Virus record (IMG/VR): IMGVR_UViG_3300030107_004698
Location: 8,075 to 37,079 of that record
Length of the DNA: 29,005 nucleotides
From: a virus
Strand: one strand, 5' to 3'
Made by a program: the position numbers and the translations under genes. The first letter of the stretch is position 1. Each line of letters starts with the position of its first letter. Under the pieces are notes generated by a model. That model saw only the letters and a program-made list of their open reading frames with translations. It was not told the DNA's origin and made no database searches. This document shows, piece after piece, positions 4,330-29,005 of this stretch.

Positions 4330-4545
4330 TCAAAACTTTTTAACCATATTCTTTTTTTTTAGTTCCTCGATATATTTACAAGGTTTTATGATCGTTAAAC
4401 GAATTTCATCCCCAATGCGGTCGTTATCGTAATCGATCAAGCTGTACCGTACTTTACAAGGAACAGGCGGTATTAATAGACTTTCTCCTGCTGGAATAAC
4501 TTTCGTAAAAAGAACCGCACTCAAAACTAATAATAAAATGTTCAT
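4330..4545 (-). CDS. Small secreted or membrane-bound protein of the lysis region
   Basis: A 71-residue ORF beginning MNILLLVLSAVLFTKVIPAG, which reads as a signal peptide or N-terminal anchor, followed by a hydrophilic domain with two cysteines (Cys30 and Cys56) that could form a disulphide outside the cytoplasm. The start overlaps the previous gene's stop (ATGA). I do not recognise the family. Its place between two membrane proteins and the endolysin suggests a part in lysis or superinfection exclusion, which is inference. Confidence 0.55.
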   Translation of the reverse strand: MNILLLVLSAVLFTKVIPAGESLLIPPVPCKVRYSLIDYDNDRIGDEIRLTIIKPCKYIEELKKKNMVKKF

Positions 4546-4790
4546 TGTTCTTTTTTCATATTTTTTATATTGGTACTGATCTGAATAAGCATTTTGTAAA
4601 TATCCATTTGCCTGGAGTTCATGTTTTTTTGTGTACTGGAAATCTCTCCGACCTTTTCTTTCAAGGAACTCACTTTACTTTCCAGTTTCTTTCCTTCCGC
4701 TAAAGGAAAGGTAAACTGTGTGATTAAAAACCAAACGGTGCTAAAAACAACAACTACGCTAGACAGTACAAAGGTAAGCCAATTACTCAT
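4542..4790 (-). CDS. Membrane-anchored coiled-coil protein (XhlA-like plan)
   Basis: An 82-residue protein starting MSNWLTFVLSS: one N-terminal membrane segment (about residues 4-27) followed by a coiled coil (LESKVSSLKEKVGEISSTQKNM). The frame is open further upstream to 4862, but this ATG forms an ATGA overlap with the stop of the 33-residue gene at 4787, and the upstream residues are not conserved-looking (Ser/Arg/Cys-rich, as expected from translating another gene's frame). The short start is therefore chosen. The architecture matches lysis accessory proteins. Confidence 0.58.
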   Translation of the reverse strand: MSNWLTFVLSSVVVVFSTVWFLITQFTFPLAEGKKLESKVSSLKEKVGEISSTQKNMNSRQMDIYKMLIQISTNIKNMKKEQ

Positions 4791-7630: not shown

Positions 7631-10258
7631 TTATCTTGTACCAATTCCCATTGGTGTATTTAATAATCTTCTTTTCATTTGATTCATTCTTTGCACATAC
7701 CTTTTTGATTCACGATTTGTTTCTAATCCTCTTGGCACTACCGTAAACGCTTCAATGTATTTTTTTACACTTAGCGCATCTTCTAAATCATCTCTATTAA
7801 CAGTTTTTACTAAACGACCTAAATGTGCAGCCAATTTATTTGGCTCTATTTCTAATGCTTTTGTTAGCCACTTTACCCTTTCGGGATTAGTCATCCAACG
7901 TGCAGCTCCTTTTGCCCCAAGTATCGTTACCAATGTTCCGCTTAATATACTTGTAGCATCCATTAAAACACCTTGTAATCCCTCTTGTCGTGGATTAGAA
8001 AAATCGTATCCAGACGCATATAATAAACCAGTCACGCCACCACCAATTTTCATAGCACCACCTAAATACAAACCTTTACCGACTAAATCACCTGCTGTTC
8101 CAGAAGGGTTTTGATAAACTTTTCCAACTTCCCTAACTCTACTTGCTGCCCTACCCAAAGCGTCTAAAGATTTTCTTAAATTTCCCATTTCCTTTCCAGA
8201 GAAAAGAACATCTTTTGCCCCTTTGGTTATTTTATTATAGTCAGTTAAAAATCTACCTATAGAAAAAGTGAAATCTAATGCTTCTTCTCCTGTTTCGGAT
8301 TTTACTCCAGGTAAAGCCATACCCATTCTATCCAAAACAGTGCCAACTACTACTTTCCATTCTTCAGGTTTCATGGTTGCTTTTAAATCTTTTAAATAAG
8401 TAGAACCTACCTTAGATTTACTTTCTATCATTTGAAATACTTTTTCTGGTTCAAATTTTTTAGATACAGACTCAAGGATATTGTCTATTCTAGTTATCAT
8501 TTCTTTGTATTGCTTATTTGCTTTTTGAAATAATTTAAGTGCTTCAGGACCTTTTCTTTCTGCGGCAACTTTCATTTCTTTGCTAATTGCCCCATACAAA
8601 CTTTTAAGTTCTCCCCTAGAAATTTTAGGCATCATAGTATAGTTGCCTAGCAAATTTCCTACTTCGCTTCGCATAGATTTTAAAGTTTCCCAAGAAAGTC
8701 CTTCTTTCTTTACCATTATGTTTTCTATATTTAACATACCTTCCATTCCTGGAGGTAATTTTCCAGTTTTAGCAAGAATTTCTTTTGCATATTTTAAATC
8801 TAAACCTCTTTCCGTAAACTCCCTTGCAGCATTATCGTTAACAATGTGTTTCGTAATAATTTCCATAACATCTAATTTATATGCTTTCGCTAAATTTGAT
8901 ATCTCAGGATTGGCAAAATATTCACTAAGATTCTTAGCAGTTTTTATAGGCATTAAAAGACCGTTTAAAGTTCTTGTTATTGTCGGAGTGTTAATCATTT
9001 CATTTTCATCAAAATAAGCAGACAATTCATCAAACATTTTTCCTGCTCTTTTTTTTCTGTACTCAACCCAACTTTCACTTGCTTTTTTAATAAGACTTCC
9101 TGTTTTTTCAGGCGTTAATCCTTTTCCACCTATTTCAACAGACTTTTTTTTCAAGAACGATTGCATTGCTTTATTTGCTTCCGATGCTTTTCTTGCAAAA
9201 ACTGCCGCACCACCTGGAAACCCTTCTAAAATTCCCTGCAATCCTGTCCAAAACCTTCTTCCTGTAGCCATTCCTATCGAAGGATATAATTTATCTACCG
9301 TTTGAAAATCTGCCCATGCCCTTTTAGTTCTTTCAATTCCTTTTTTACCACCAGCGATTGCCTTTTGATAACCTCGTCTAGCAATTCTTCCTACCAACGG
9401 GGAAACTGCCTGACTGCCCATAGCCAATACAGAGTTCAGAGCCATACTTCTAGCTTTTTCTTCTTTGTTATCAATATTCATACCAGAAAAATATTCTAAC
9501 GCTTTTATGTATGCTTGTTCAAAATTGCTTCCTAACCCTGCTCCAACTATTGCACCAGGAGGTCCGCCAAGCGCACCACCTGCTGCTGCTCCAGCTGTTT
9601 CTCCAGCAATTCCTGCAACAGTTCTTCCTTCGTCTACTAAAATGTCCATAAAAGGTTCAAAATTATCGGGATCAAATCTTGTCCACATTTGGGTTTCAGG
9701 ATGTAAAAATTCAAAGTCAATAAGTTCTCCGCTTCTATCTTTTCTCATTCTTAGATGTGGATATACTTTTCTTAACTCATCAAATTTTTCATATATGTTG
9801 TCTGTTGATTTTGCATTTATGACAGCACGGGACATTATCGATCCGCCTGTTTCTTGATCTACAATTACCTTTCCTTCAGAATCAGTTTTTCCCATCATTT
9901 TAATTAAGTCTTCTGAAATTGGCTCTCTAATGCCTGAATCATCTTCTGCTTGTGCCATTTCAAGTTTATCGTAATCTTTCTTTGCTAATGCTTCCTGATT
10001 TCTCAACGAACGATAAAAGTTTATATCATCATCTTCTAAATCATACTCAAAAGACTTCGGGTTAGTGACTTCAATTTTCATATACTCTGCTTTGTCAGGA
10101 TCAGTCAAAAGTAAATTTTCATAATCTTTACTATCAGAAATTTTTTTCCAAATTTCTGAATTTACTTCTTCCTGATCAGCTGGTAACAAACTAGAATACC
10201 CTCTCTCAGGGTCTTCTCTTTTCTTTATAAAATCGTCAAATAAACTAATTCCCGACAT
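7631..10258 (-). CDS. Large internal virion / DNA-ejection protein
   Basis: An 875-residue protein, the largest in the window. Residues 1-205 are acidic and mixed. Residues 212-243 form a Gly/Ala-rich segment (VAGIAGETAGAAAGGALGG and onward) of the type that inserts into membranes. Residues 300-760 are Lys-rich and mostly helical. A second Gly-rich hydrophobic stretch follows (VGKGLYLGGAMKIGGGVTGLLYASG, about 735-760), then LSGTLVTILGAKGAARW. Podovirus ejection proteins (the P22 gp16/gp20 or T7 gp15/gp16 role) have this mix of helices and amphipathic Gly-rich stretches, and it lies between the other internal proteins and the fibre. No transglycosylase motif is evident. The role is inferred from order and composition. 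Confidence 0.6.
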   Translation of the reverse strand: MSGISLFDDFIKKREDPERGYSSLLPADQEEVNSEIWKKISDSKDYENLLLTDPDKAEYMKIEVTNPKSFEYDLEDDDINFYRSLRNQEALAKKDYDKLEMAQAEDDSGIREPISEDLIKMMGKTDSEGKVIVDQETGGSIMSRAVINAKSTDNIYEKFDELRKVYPHLRMRKDRSGELIDFEFLHPETQMWTRFDPDNFEPFMDILVDEGRTVAGIAGETAGAAAGGALGGPPGAIVGAGLGSNFEQAYIKALEYFSGMNIDNKEEKARSMALNSVLAMGSQAVSPLVGRIARRGYQKAIAGGKKGIERTKRAWADFQTVDKLYPSIGMATGRRFWTGLQGILEGFPGGAAVFARKASEANKAMQSFLKKKSVEIGGKGLTPEKTGSLIKKASESWVEYRKKRAGKMFDELSAYFDENEMINTPTITRTLNGLLMPIKTAKNLSEYFANPEISNLAKAYKLDVMEIITKHIVNDNAAREFTERGLDLKYAKEILAKTGKLPPGMEGMLNIENIMVKKEGLSWETLKSMRSEVGNLLGNYTMMPKISRGELKSLYGAISKEMKVAAERKGPEALKLFQKANKQYKEMITRIDNILESVSKKFEPEKVFQMIESKSKVGSTYLKDLKATMKPEEWKVVVGTVLDRMGMALPGVKSETGEEALDFTFSIGRFLTDYNKITKGAKDVLFSGKEMGNLRKSLDALGRAASRVREVGKVYQNPSGTAGDLVGKGLYLGGAMKIGGGVTGLLYASGYDFSNPRQEGLQGVLMDATSILSGTLVTILGAKGAARWMTNPERVKWLTKALEIEPNKLAAHLGRLVKTVNRDDLEDALSVKKYIEAFTVVPRGLETNRESKRYVQRMNQMKRRLLNTPMGIGTR

Positions 10259-12129: not shown

Positions 12130-13602
12130 TTATCTCCTTAACAATCCATAACCACCAGCAGTTCCAGCAGCCCCTAACAATCCACCCATGAGTGCTTGTT
12201 GATACGCTGTTTGACCTTGCCATCCCTGCATTGCTGCGTTGGTTGCCAATGCTTGTGCGCCAACAACATCAGTTGGTGCTACTGCGGTTGGAGTGTATCC
12301 TGTGAACTGACCTGTTTGTACTCCAGGTGCAGTACCCATAAGAACTGCAAGTTCATTCAATGGTGCGTTCCTTGCCTGTAAACGCTCTCCTATCATTTGT
12401 TGACGGATAGCGGAAGATGCCTGTAGCTGTGCCTGTCTTTCCTGAATTGCTCTTGCTCTTGCTTCGTTGGCAAGGTTTGCTAACTGCATACGTTGTCCAA
12501 ACCCTTCTGTTCCAAACTGGTTAATCAAACCTGCGTTTGCCATTCTTTGTGCAAACTCTGCTTGTCCCATTTCATTTTGTAGTTGTCTTGATGCCATCTC
12601 CTGACCGAATCGTTGTTGGTTTGCTCTGTTGGCTAGTTCTGCCTGACTGACGTTCATGCCAAACATTTGATTTGCCCTAGCACGATCTGCTTCAGCAGAC
12701 ATCAACCGTTGAGACAAGTTTCCTTGTACCGCTTGATTGGCTAAAGATGCTCTTGCCATTGCTTCTTGTTCTTGTTGCTGTCTTCCAGCCATACCCATAC
12801 CAAAAGCACGTTCTGCTTCTTGTCCCCCTTGCATTACCGATTGGAATGCAAGATTGGAATATGCTTCATCTGATCTTCGGTTAAATTCTTTTTCTGCTGC
12901 GTTGTACGCTTCTGATCCAGCAGGAATACCCTGTATCGCAAGTCTGTCTTCTAACGCTCTTCGTTCAGAAGCAAACCTGTCATCCATCATACGTTTTTGA
13001 CGGTTATAAAAAGCGTTCTCTACATTAGTTCTTAATGTTCCATACCCACCTGCGGTTGGAATATCTATCGTTGGTGAACCAAGTGTGGATTGAAATTGTT
13101 CGGTTACTTGTGGAGTTGCTCCAAGAGTAGGTGCAGAAACTTGTGTTTGAATGTCTCTTGCACTAGGAGCAATACCAAATACTGTTGGAGATACTCCTGT
13201 TGCAAATTCACCCCCTGCCACACTTCCTACAGCTTGTGGTGCGCCAGTAGTAATAGCTGACTCTCCTGTAATATCAGGAAGTCCGCCATATACATCAGAC
13301 ACATCCCCACTTAGACCCGAACGGATTCTTCCAGCCTGTTCTAATCCAGTTTGATATGCCGATCCTGTTAGCTGTCTTTGCAGATTTAGATTTGCCTGTC
13401 CTTGCGGAGTCAGGGAAGTAGTTCGAGTAATATTGCCTTCTGGATCAATGACATTTTGTAAAGTTCCATAGGGAGTAGTCTCTAGTACGGGATTAGCAAG
13501 TCTCCCTTGCAATAAAGCAGTTTCTTGGTTTGCTGCCGCTTGTGCCTGTGCCACTACTTGTGGATTAGGTGGTTCAGGCGGTTTAGGTGCGGAAAAACTC
13601 AT
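12130..13602 (-). CDS. Ala/Gln-rich internal virion protein
   Basis: A 490-residue protein with a proline-rich start (MSFSAPKPPEPPNPQVVAQ), a middle part rich in Gly, Thr and Ser, and a long helical region (about residues 200-410) dominated by Ala, Gln, Arg and Met. This is typical of internal or ejection proteins of podoviruses in uncultured phage collections. The C-terminus is Gly/Ala-rich and mildly hydrophobic (LMGGLLGAAGTAGGYGLL). It follows the acetyltransferase by 9 bases. DNA ejection or internal core is inferred; no enzyme motif is seen. Confidence 0.55.
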   Translation of the reverse strand: MSFSAPKPPEPPNPQVVAQAQAAANQETALLQGRLANPVLETTPYGTLQNVIDPEGNITRTTSLTPQGQANLNLQRQLTGSAYQTGLEQAGRIRSGLSGDVSDVYGGLPDITGESAITTGAPQAVGSVAGGEFATGVSPTVFGIAPSARDIQTQVSAPTLGATPQVTEQFQSTLGSPTIDIPTAGGYGTLRTNVENAFYNRQKRMMDDRFASERRALEDRLAIQGIPAGSEAYNAAEKEFNRRSDEAYSNLAFQSVMQGGQEAERAFGMGMAGRQQQEQEAMARASLANQAVQGNLSQRLMSAEADRARANQMFGMNVSQAELANRANQQRFGQEMASRQLQNEMGQAEFAQRMANAGLINQFGTEGFGQRMQLANLANEARARAIQERQAQLQASSAIRQQMIGERLQARNAPLNELAVLMGTAPGVQTGQFTGYTPTAVAPTDVVGAQALATNAAMQGWQGQTAYQQALMGGLLGAAGTAGGYGLLRR

Positions 13603-22861: not shown

Positions 22862-24373
22862 CTATAAGTACCGCACCAGCTCTGGTCGGTTCGATTCTCT
22901 CAATTCATTAAATGTCGGCATCCTAAATTCAGGAACAGCATCTTCTTTCGGAAGATCCGCAGGAGATACATCGTTTAACATTCTTCCGCATAAACTCAGT
23001 ACATCTACCTGATCGTCGTATTTGCTGACAGGAAATTTCAACATTTCCGCAATCAGCGGAGATACCCAATATAAGTTTTTTGGAAACAAAATCATTCCCT
23101 GCGCCATACGACCTGCAAAAGAGTGGCATCGCTGTACTTTATCGGTAGAGGATGCAAATTGTTTGCGGTACACAAACGCTTTTTCTTCTCTTTGCCTTTT
23201 TTCTATCAATGACCCAATCGAACGGATAATCTGTCCCTTTTCCTCCGCCCATTGAATAGGTTTCCATTTTTTTACCAGATTCACGAAATGTTCTATCCAT
23301 GTTAAAGGGTCAGTGCGTAATCTCATCCAGTCTAATATATAAATTTGGTCGAGGTGATCTACGCCAAAGACTCCATGCACGGTATAATCTCCTTTTTCGG
23401 AAACTGCATAATCGGATGCTCCAAAAATCTTCAAGTTGGAAGGAACTTCGTCGTAATACCGAATCCATTCCCTCTTGAAAATCTCTCCTGATTCTGGAGT
23501 GGGTCGTTGCTGGTACAAAGCCGACCAGTTCCGTTCTCCCTGTGCCTTTCTCTCCTGCTCTAATATCTCTAGCGAATACCAATCAGCCCAAAGCGGCTCT
23601 CCCACCTCTCTTCCCATCGGGTCGTTTTCTTCGGCTAGTGCAGGAAGATTCAGGATTTCCCAAATCTCCCCATCACTTGCCTTTATCCGACCTGACTCGC
23701 CAGAGTAATTCGGTGGCAGTATACGACCTGCCAAATCATCTTCATGCCATCTCGTCTGAATCAGTATCATTGCCGAATCTGGTTTCAAACGAGTTCTAAA
23801 ATCCGATAAAAACCATTCCCAGTTCTTGTTTCGGTAGGTATCGGAATCGGCTTCTTCTCTTCCTTTCACAGGATCGTCGATAATCCCTAAATCGGCTCTA
23901 CGACCTGTTACCGCACCGCCTACTCCTACTGCGTAGTATTCTCCCCCTTTGGCATTTTCCCATCTTCCTGCCGCCTGAGAATCAGGACTCAATCCAAAAC
24001 CGTAAATGTCCTTGTATTCAGGGGAATCCACTATGTTCCGTATCTTTCTACCAAAGCGTTCCGCCAATGCTTCGGTATGCGATGCGTGGATAATATTTTT
24101 TCTCTCGTTTCTGCCCATCCAATAAGGCGGAAACAATACCGAGCAGTATGTTGATTTTGCGTGTCCTGGTGGCATAAACACCATTAACCGCTTTATTTCT
24201 CCTGTCTCGATCTTCTGCAATTTGTCCAGTAAAAGCAGGTGATGTTTTGCAGGAGGTGGTTCGTAACTGACCATTTTCACAAAATGTTCCAATTCCCTAG
24301 AAGCAAGTTCCTGCTGTATCCACTTTTGCTTCGTCACTAAAAGTTCGGGGCTAATTGGTTTCTTTTTATGCAA
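22862..24373 (-). CDS. terL: Terminase large subunit
   Basis: A 503-residue packaging motor. ATPase domain: Walker A PPGHAKST at residues 68-75 (a form lacking the usual GKT but with the conserved Lys), Walker B LGIIDDP at 162-168, and the coupling motif TRWHEDDL at 207-214. Nuclease domain: Asp321 in FGASDYAV and the DDQVD block near the C-terminus are candidate metal ligands of the RNase H-like fold that cuts concatemeric DNA. It overlaps terS by 8 bases. The WHEDDLAGR and GRRADLGIIDDPVKGREEADS stretches are very typical of this terminase clade in uncultured marine podoviruses. Confidence 0.93.
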   Translation of the reverse strand: MHKKKPISPELLVTKQKWIQQELASRELEHFVKMVSYEPPPAKHHLLLLDKLQKIETGEIKRLMVFMPPGHAKSTYCSVLFPPYWMGRNERKNIIHASHTEALAERFGRKIRNIVDSPEYKDIYGFGLSPDSQAAGRWENAKGGEYYAVGVGGAVTGRRADLGIIDDPVKGREEADSDTYRNKNWEWFLSDFRTRLKPDSAMILIQTRWHEDDLAGRILPPNYSGESGRIKASDGEIWEILNLPALAEENDPMGREVGEPLWADWYSLEILEQERKAQGERNWSALYQQRPTPESGEIFKREWIRYYDEVPSNLKIFGASDYAVSEKGDYTVHGVFGVDHLDQIYILDWMRLRTDPLTWIEHFVNLVKKWKPIQWAEEKGQIIRSIGSLIEKRQREEKAFVYRKQFASSTDKVQRCHSFAGRMAQGMILFPKNLYWVSPLIAEMLKFPVSKYDDQVDVLSLCGRMLNDVSPADLPKEDAVPEFRMPTFNELRESNRPELVRYL

Positions 24374-24803
24374 TCACTTCCCCCTCAACAACATCTTCTG
24401 CTGGTTTTGCCACTAACCGTTTTCCTATGTTTTGCAGTTCGGTCAGTTCTTTTGTACTCAACTGCGATAAATCAGGTCGGTGGCTAACATCAATCTGTCC
24501 CTTTACCGTTACCTGATAATTGTCCCTGTAAATCTCAGGTCTTCTGCTTTTAAGCAGAAACATGAGCAAAACATCTGATTTCTTTGCTCTCACCATCAGT
24601 TCATCTTCAAGCTGACAAGTCCCTATCTCAAATGCCACCCTATACTTCTCGTTCCAGTCAGGGTTTGCCTTCCGAAAATAATGCACTGTCCTTGTCGTTA
24701 TTCCCACCTTCTTGGCAGCGTCGGTTACTGTCTCTCCGTTCGCTAATAATTTCAAGAAGGTTTCCTGATGCGCTTTCTTGAACTTAGTATGCGAAGTACC
24801 CAA
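24366..24803 (-). CDS. terS: Terminase small subunit
   Basis: A 145-residue DNA-binding protein that recognises the packaging start. A helix-turn-helix lies in residues about 20-48 (ANGETVTDAAKKVGITTRTVHYFRKANPDW), followed by LEDELMVRAKKSDVLLMFLLKSRRPEIYRDNY, the common oligomerisation part of this family, and a terL-binding-like C-terminus. The start is a TTG at 24803 with AAGGAG 5 bases upstream. The conserved dyad 24821-24840 lies 17 bases before the start. Confidence 0.87.
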   Translation of the reverse strand: MGTSHTKFKKAHQETFLKLLANGETVTDAAKKVGITTRTVHYFRKANPDWNEKYRVAFEIGTCQLEDELMVRAKKSDVLLMFLLKSRRPEIYRDNYQVTVKGQIDVSHRPDLSQLSTKELTELQNIGKRLVAKPAEDVVEGEVIA

Positions 24804-27932: not shown

Positions 27933-28109
27933 TTAAATATTCAATACATTAATTTGATAATTCACTTCCTTCAAATCCACCTTATTCGCTTCCTTGCTTA
28001 AATTGAAATCTTCATTGGATTCAATAACAATCAGTTTTTTTTCAAATTGATTAATTGCATCCATTAAAACTTCTTTTGTTGCTACAAAGTAATGTTTTTT
28101 AGTTTGCAT
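27933..28109 (-). CDS. 58-residue unknown protein, first gene of the leftward operon
   Basis: A short gene read from the sequence. ATG at 28109 with AGGAGA 7 bases upstream, TAA at 27933. It begins MQTKKHYFVATKEVLMDAIN, continues with a strand LIVIES and ends YQINVLNI, a compact alpha/beta shape. It lies about 40 bases after a predicted start site of the leftward promoter. Small size and early position fit a host-takeover protein; function unknown. Confidence 0.6.
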   Translation of the reverse strand: MQTKKHYFVATKEVLMDAINQFEKKLIVIESNEDFNLSKEANKVDLKEVNYQINVLNI

Positions 28110-28158
28110 TGTTTGATCTCCTGTCTATGAATAAAAAAATATATATCTTATAAGAGAT

Positions 28159-28187
28159 ATTATCTATTTTATTTATTAATAAGTAAA
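28159..28187 (-). promoter_or_regulatory. Leftward sigma-70-type promoter
   Basis: On the minus strand TTTACT (28187-28182), 17-base spacer, GATAAT (28164-28159). It would start transcription near 28152, 43 bases before the first gene of the leftward operon. The spacing is ideal. Confidence 0.6.
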
Positions 28188-28233
28188 GCACTTTTTGTCA
28201 TACATTAATTATAAATATTAATAGGGTTCTATT

Positions 28234-28256
28234 CTGGAAGCTGGAAGCTGGAAGCT
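28234..28256 (+). repeat. 7-bp tandem repeat CTGGAAG x3
   Basis: Three exact copies of CTGGAAG followed by CT. Three TGCG tetramers with 9-10 base spacing follow (28258, 28267, 28277). It lies in the control region between the divergent promoters. Confidence 0.7.
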
Positions 28257-28290
28257 TTGCGATCACTGCGAATTTTTGCGGCTAAAAATT

Positions 28291-28400
28291 AGTTTTTTTC
28301 TAGTCTGTTTTCTTAGTCTGTTTTGTTCTGTTTTTTGTTCTGTTTTTCTTGTGTTTTTTCTTGTATTTTTTTGTTCTGTTTTTTCTTGTTTTTTCTTGGT
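28291..28400 (+). other. Strand-asymmetric T-rich tract
   Basis: About 110 bases almost without A on the plus strand. TCTGTTTT occurs five times (28304, 28317, 28327, 28339, 28375), and TCTTG followed by T-runs several times. Next to it comes ATATCTATATATATAGC and then the iterons. In lambda-type origins an asymmetric A/T tract lies beside the iterons; this is the same order. Confidence 0.6.
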
Positions 28401-28427
28401 TTATATCTATATATATAGCTATTTTTT

Positions 28428-28555
28428 AACGTAAACAAACGTAACGTAAGTAAAATTGAACGTAAACAAAATCAACGTAACGTAATTCAACGTACTGAAA
28501 TTCAACGTAAACATATTCCAGGAGAATTGAACGTATACAAAATCAACGTATAGTC
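28428..28555 (+). repeat. Array of 15-bp AACGTA iterons
   Basis: AACGTA occurs ten times in 124 bases. Four head-to-tail 15-bp units with consensus A(A/T)T(C/G)AACGTAAACAA run from 28455 to 28514. After an 11-base gap two more follow (28526-28555); two degenerate units precede. It is not a CRISPR array (no spacers). It fits an initiator-binding iteron array or an operator array. Confidence 0.7.
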
Positions 28556-28582
28556 CTTACTTTATTATAGGTTTAATATTAG

Positions 28583-28611
28583 TTGTATGACAATTAAAAG
28601 TATGTTACTAT
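28583..28611 (+). promoter_or_regulatory. Rightward sigma-70-type promoter
   Basis: TTGTAT (28583-28588), 17-base spacer, TACTAT (28606-28611). Transcription would start near 28618, giving a leader of about 25 bases that includes AAGGAG before the ATG at 28642. It lies 28 bases after the last iteron. Confidence 0.55.
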
Positions 28612-28641
28612 CGTTTTTTTACCTAACCCTATAAGGAGAGA

Positions 28642-28857
28642 ATGATGGAGTATATGTTTGAAGAAGATATGAGTGTAATGAATAGATATTGGATTACTGC
28701 CGATTCAAAAGAAGAAGCTGAACGCAAGTTTGAAAATGGTGAACACGATAACCATGATTCTAAGTATGACCAAGTTTTAGATTTAAGAAAATATGTATTT
28801 AAAGGTACATCTTGGGTAGAACTACAGGAGAACAAATTAAAGGAGACAAATGAATAA
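28642..28857 (+). CDS. Small acidic early protein
   Basis: A 71-residue ORF starting at ATG 28642 (a second ATG follows at 28645), with AAGGAG upstream. It reads MSVMNRYWITADSKEEAERKFENGEHD and ends GTSWVELQENKLKETNE; the part ITADSKEEAERKFENGE resembles small proteins with a PepSY- or DpnD-like shape, where a short strand is followed by an A-x-x-K-F helix. It overlaps the next gene by 8 bases. Function unknown; first gene of the rightward unit. Confidence 0.65.
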   Translation: MMEYMFEEDMSVMNRYWITADSKEEAERKFENGEHDNHDSKYDQVLDLRKYVFKGTSWVELQENKLKETNE

Positions 28858-29005
28858 GGATAGATTTTACGAGTTATTAGACACTATGAAGATTTTACAT
28901 GACGCTAAAAGACACGACTATGGCAATGAAGACGTACTGGCAAATTTTAAACTATCCGAACTCGCTGGTATTCCAGCGTGGAAAGGTTGTGTAGTACGAA
29001 TGGGC
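28850..29005 (+). CDS. DUF1599 / nucleotide-modification-associated domain protein (3' truncated)
   Basis: The first 52 residues of a gene cut by the window end. ATG at 28850 after AAAGGAG. It begins MNKDRFYELLDTMKILHDAK, then RHDYGNEDVLANFKLSELAGIPAWKGCVVRMG. The block H-x-x-K-x-x-DYG-x-x-x-D-x-L-x-NF, followed by G-I-P-A-W-K-G-x-x-VRM, matches the DUF1599-type domain (Nmad1), found in phages with modified or salvaged nucleotides, and an all-alpha MazG-like fold is likely. A role in nucleotide metabolism is inferred from family association. Confidence 0.75.
   Translation, partial: MNKDRFYELLDTMKILHDAKRHDYGNEDVLANFKLSELAGIPAWKGCVVRMG

Follow-up and report, generated by a model that had tools for sequence, protein, structure and literature searches.

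An AACGTA repeat array beside a T-rich tract in the early region of a marine temperate phage: a candidate replication origin

Iterons usually adjoin the gene of their own initiator. The ori of lambda and the Stx phages is composed of O iterons plus an AT-rich tract (PMC7466680). In the SaPI/PICI Rep-ori and in the putative SCCmec Cch2 origin (PMC6092414, PMC7581432) short iterons adjoin AT-rich DNA, and both SaPI Rep and SCCmec Cch2 are helicases that read short iterons with their C-terminal domain (PMC7581432). The RK2 oriV contains iterons plus a DUE of 13-mers (PMC4081077). In plasmid origins, T-rich repeats of this kind make up the DUE, and initiators bind one of its strands (PMC4081077). 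For uncultured marine temperate phages, few origins have been proposed on evidence beyond repeats.

The window analysed here (the whole stretch of 29,005 nucleotides) spans positions 8075-37079 of virus record IMGVR_UViG_3300030107_004698, which is 37,079 bases long. The source is a temperate marine bacteriophage, a P22-like podovirus. Its TerL shows 44-45% identity to those of phages CBW1004C-Prop1 and Pam1, and CBW1004C-Prop1 carries P22-like genes, including those for the DNA-stabilizing protein and the DNA transfer protein. The virion genes (terminase, portal, coat) are oriented leftward. The repeat array described below lies in the intergenic region 28110-28641, which separates the leftward genes from the early operon running rightward. 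Rightward of the array, a DUF1599 protein, a ribbon-helix-helix (RHH) protein and a DUF7699 protein are encoded, followed by a leftward C1-like repressor. Beyond the repressor come a Cro-like protein, a tyrosine integrase, ERF, a CHC2 plus TOPRIM/AAA_25 primase-helicase and a Dam-type methylase. The integrase gene is adjoined by a fragment from the 3' end of a tRNA-Gly(GCC) gene, which is therefore probably the attP of a temperate phage. An exact counterpart of this sequence was absent from the genome collection, and no prophage or host was found. At the repressor/Cro junction a 25-bp repeat (ATCAGACnTGAGnATwTC) occurs twice, at record positions 2828-2852 and 2940-2964; the two copies are likely to be the lysogeny operators.

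Table 1. Features of the array region and of related loci (window positions, unless the record is named)
Feature	Position	Strand	Remark
First leftward gene, 58 aa	27933..28109	-	without family
Least stable 100 bp in the 29-kb window	28125..28224		candidate melting region
TGTATGACAA	28195..28204 and 28584-28593	- and +	outward-facing, flanking the region
T-rich, A-poor tract	28291..28400	+	candidate single-strand or unwinding element
AT-rich link TTTATATCTATATATATAGCTATTTTTT, TATATA block	28401..28427		between tract and array; same in both haplotypes
AACGTA array	28428..28550	+	unit AACGTAnnnAAAwTS, 15-bp pitch
AACGTA starts	28428, 28438, 28443, 28459, 28474, 28479, 28489, 28504, 28530, 28545	+	
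Break of the 15-bp pitch, 11 bp	28519..28529	+	inside CATATTCCAGGAGAAWTG, near-identical in both haplotypes
Promoter-like TTGTCA-18-TATAAT (11/12)	28564..28593	-	leftward, through array and T-rich tract
Candidate early rightward promoter TTGTAT-17-TACTAT	28583..28611	+	read from sequence
First rightward gene, 71 aa	28642..28857	+	other haplotype: different 66-aa gene
Primase-helicase C-terminal winged-helix-like segment	73..333	+	TOPRIM/AAA_25; gene begins at record 6839, before the window
tRNA-Gly(GCC) gene, 3' piece	record 4530-4600		just past integrase gene; read from sequence

The array contains ten copies of AACGTA, all on the plus strand, whose starts are separated by 10, 5, 16, 15, 5, 10, 15, 26 and 15 bases. 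Four 15-bp units are arranged head to tail; two further units come after a gap of 11 bp. This count, the spacings and the unit structure had been given by the first-pass annotation and proved exact on recount. The interval proposed there, 28291-28555, covers both the T-rich tract and the array, and only the narrower 28428-28550 is the array itself. At 28438-28448 and at 28474-28484 two hexamers share one base, being offset by 5 bp. The number of copies far exceeds chance: in 28110-28641 ten are observed, whereas 2,000 dinucleotide shuffles yielded 0.27 on average and never more than 4. No second hexamer array of this density is present within the window, and the AACGTA array is the sole such cluster in the whole record, as expected for an origin.

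The annotated 110-base T-rich, A-poor tract and the ATATAT stretch indeed adjoin the array, the latter as the TATATA block. The tract comprises 78 T, 17 G, 11 C and 4 A. When the T-A excess was calculated in 110-nt windows over the whole 29 kb, the highest value was 77 (start 28293) and the runner-up 47. The tract is made up of imperfect repeats of about 12 bp that resemble TTTTGTTCTGTT; TRF reports a period of 12 with 5.3 copies at 28321-28384. Three perfect tandem copies of CTGGAAG (28234-28256) are found at its left edge. Directly to the left of the tract, nearest-neighbour energies place the stability minima of the window, not only for 100 bp (Table 1) but also for 150 bp (28083-28232) and 300 bp (27933-28232). 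The easily melted, strand-asymmetric AT-rich neighbour expected of an iteron origin is found in the intergenic region. An Rfam search gave no matches to RNA families.

The GC skew had been put forward as a check on the origin, and its cumulative minimum does lie close to the array, at window 28073. The maximum, at record 10059, does not lie across the genome from the array; the AT-skew maximum falls at the array start. However, the extremes fall at switches in gene orientation. Within the right arm, the minus-strand repressor gene, the one long reversed gene, follows its coding strand in skew. The turning points lie near the array because gene orientation switches there; GC skew is confounded in this way, speaks neither for nor against an origin, and was dropped as origin evidence.

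The record offers an internal comparison. Its first 629 bases align with the last 648 (window 28358-29005) at 82%. This is most simply explained if the genome is circular or circularly permuted and its ends were left unjoined by two coexisting variants of the locus. The left haplotype contains eight AACGTA copies and the right one ten, and the 70 bases before the array (tract and TATATA block) are identical in both. Within the eight shared registers, none of the 48 hexamer columns differ, versus 14 of the 70 comparable spacer positions (Fisher p = 0.0007). As the hexamers are invariant and the spacers variable, it is very probable that a protein reads the AACGTA hexamer in a sequence-specific manner. 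Exchange between repeats could also give rise to this pattern, although it is most plainly accounted for by selection for a protein-binding core. The several direct copies of a short sequence that characterize an iteron origin are thus present (10 and 8 copies with a conserved core), with an initiator as the candidate binder.

Among the described origins, the lambda/Stx-phage ori resembles the locus in its direct iterons, its adjoining asymmetric AT-rich tract and its proximity to an early promoter. In lambda, however, the iterons lie inside the O gene, whereas here the array is non-coding, with a hexamer core and a 15-bp pitch, and a search of the record for an HTH_36- or O-like initiator gave no match. 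In the strict sense, the original comparison with lambda-type origins consequently does not hold. With the SaPI/PICI and SCCmec Cch2 systems the locus has in common the short iterons next to AT-rich DNA, which could be read by an initiator helicase through a DNA-binding domain at its C-terminus. In contrast, the SaPI/PICI ori directly follows the 3' end of rep, and in PICIs the AT region has an iteron set on either side, while here one set is found on one side only, about 7.3 kb from a primase-helicase of the RecA-fold AAA_25 type; the two flanking sets 3' of rep are lacking. As in RK2 oriV, iterons are followed by a strand-asymmetric AT-rich tract of T-rich repeats, but neither DnaA boxes nor a Rep protein were identified here, and the iterons differ in length and pitch. 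The array would thus join the known iteron-plus-DUE kind and not the strict lambda type.

Conservation of the array in related phages, which had been proposed as a check, was not observed: apart from the second haplotype, no carrier of it was found in IMG/VR, as searched here with records very close to this genome possibly left out. A search with a two-unit pattern returned 13 chance matches only, and the invariant gap segment had no match elsewhere. None of the relatives identified by integrase, primase-helicase or terminase has the array, and none of the 80 loci that encode the DUF1599 neighbor is adjoined by an array. Likewise, a phage-wide DNA similarity search yielded no match, and no comparable array is present in the annotated podovirus relatives CBW1004C-Prop1 and Pam1, which have virion genes in common with this phage. 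In the literature, the combination of AACGTA, direct repeats and phage matched a single L. lactis genome study.

The AACGTA word itself does recur in other phages. Three copies at an exact 15-bp pitch are found at 50 IMG/VR loci, the present array not being among them. Eighteen of these (about 12 distinct lineages) are located inside genes with an HTH_36 winged helix at the N-terminus, as assigned by a Pfam match in six tested genes and, for the rest, by a single profile derived from these six. With AAGCTA as control hexamer, only 1 of 80 loci lay inside such a gene. The remaining loci are pentapeptide-repeat, tail and other coding repeats. In the HTH_36 genes the repeat is coded in either orientation, giving NVGKS- or EKPTL-type peptides, and therefore it is the DNA word that is kept and not the peptide. 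Judging from the family and from lambda O, these in-gene repeats are probably the origin iterons of phage initiators, which renders an initiator-binding role of the present array more credible. Both share the AACGTA core, the 15-bp pitch and the direct orientation. They differ in that the HTH_36 phages usually have AACGTAGGnnnnTCC inside the initiator gene, whereas here the unit is AACGTAnnnAAAwTS, in non-coding DNA and with no HTH_36 gene.

The sole recognised replisome protein is the primase-helicase (PF13481 and PF13155 over cut-off; phrog_239). Its C-terminus has a weak match to the DUF7343 winged helix (E=3e-5, below the cut-off of that family), and the tail is modeled as H-H-H-E-E at low confidence (pLDDT 45). 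By analogy with SaPI Rep and SCCmec Cch2, we infer that this winged-helix tail is the best candidate for binding the array. Among phages with a related AAA_25 protein, two of nine checked have a repeat array at that gene. In Rhizobium phage RHph_Y3_56_1 a GTTCCCA/TGGGAAC array (12938-13086) immediately 3' of the primase/helicase gene is a candidate origin. Phage ctyzp037 contains TGTCCC repeats between divergent genes, at a 10-12-bp pitch with one gap of 31, and six GAACGT-type repeats at a pitch of about 15 bp inside repA (31806-31886 and 34598-34702). Gordonia phage Mayweather has eight copies of TAGTAT (8873-9021) in a non-coding stretch of about 600 bp near the genome end.

Alternatively, the binder may be the RHH protein or one of the small HTH proteins, in which case the array would be an operator. 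This is the main rival explanation and a tenable one, if less probable than an origin: a phage regulator would bind AACGTA cooperatively, as an operator or enhancer array, and repress or activate the rightward (and leftward) promoters. Such a regulator may be a small Cro-like protein or the 55-aa RHH protein encoded third in the early operon beside the array (record 763-930), which is NikA-like (PF21983, E=3.6e-7). RHH proteins commonly bind tandem sites, and both the site pitch of 5/10/15 bp and the overlapping copies suit cooperative small dimers. The position is also that of an operator, as the array lies just upstream of the apparent early promoter. This conserved promoter-like element starts 33 bp past the last AACGTA and has the same hexamers in both haplotypes; a consensus scan over it also gives an overlapping weak site, ATGACA-16-TATCGT. 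For the leftward promoter-like site, which looks strong, the -35 reads ATGTCA in the other haplotype. Two outward-facing copies of TGTATGACAA, the only exact ones in the record, flank the region, which suggests divergent promoter elements. Overall, promoter-like matches in the region show no excess over chance (7 vs 5.7 in shuffles). The conservation of the hexamers fits any binder and hence an operator too. On the other hand, an operator leaves the extreme T-rich tract and the adjacent melting minimum unexplained. Furthermore, the presumed C1/Cro operators (record 2828-2964) have a different sequence and the repressor/Cro region contains no AACGTA cluster, nor is a second one found at other promoters of the record.

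A packaging site (pac/cos-type), in which the small terminase would bind the direct repeats, is improbable. Repeat arrays are TerS targets in some phages and this phage is likely a headful packager (P22-like, with overlapping record ends), but the array is separated from the downstream terS (24366-24803) by 3.6 kb that contain several other genes on both strands, and the record ends represent two haplotypes and not physical ends. Likewise improbable is a partition centromere, at which an RHH or winged-helix adaptor would bind the repeats as parC/parS-like iterons: the tandem array does adjoin an operon encoding an RHH protein, yet no ParA/ParM/TubZ-like motor was seen among the scanned early genes, and the integrase and tRNA-Gly attP indicate that the phage integrates.

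The best-supported reading is that the intergenic region 28110-28641 is the phage replication origin, for which we consider the chances about even. It is favored by the conservation of the hexamers between haplotypes, the T/A asymmetry with the melting minimum, the AACGTA iterons elsewhere and the site between divergent operons. The two distant AAA_25 phages with arrays at the gene and the SaPI Rep and SCCmec Cch2 precedent point, by analogy, in the same direction. Against it stand the distance to the primase-helicase gene, the absence from the record of an HTH_36- or O-like initiator and the lack of an array-bearing relative. In addition, a 15-bp pitch does not correspond to an integral number of turns of the helix, and overlaps at a 5-bp offset are unusual among iterons. 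The initial origin proposal is thus supported in part, by the anatomy, the conserved hexamers, the unstable flank and the presence of AACGTA in initiator genes; a replication start at this position is putative.

At such an origin, a phage initiator would bind the AACGTA iterons and form a nucleoprotein complex that opens the adjacent AT-rich/T-rich DNA. The T-rich strand would be kept single-stranded for loading of the phage primase-helicase, and early transcription from the flanking divergent promoters may assist. The same complex may control the early promoter too. A more elaborate version, which we regard as unlikely, has the primase-helicase fusion itself reading AACGTA on a 5/10/15-bp grid in a non-coding origin, with neighboring or overlapping copies on opposite sides of the helix. 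The array would then double as the shared control of the divergent early promoters, and AACGTA would be a convergent iteron word of unrelated winged-helix initiators. If the origin reading is true, the locus is a compact replicator of 550 bp that connects short iterons with a TOPRIM/AAA_25 primase-helicase whose tail is a winged helix. AACGTA at a 15-bp pitch would then be a recurring iteron word, usable for finding origins in phage genomes. At the right border of the region, the first early gene forms a hypervariable slot, in which a small protein of 66 aa in one haplotype is replaced by one of 71 aa in the other, between flanks that are otherwise near-identical.
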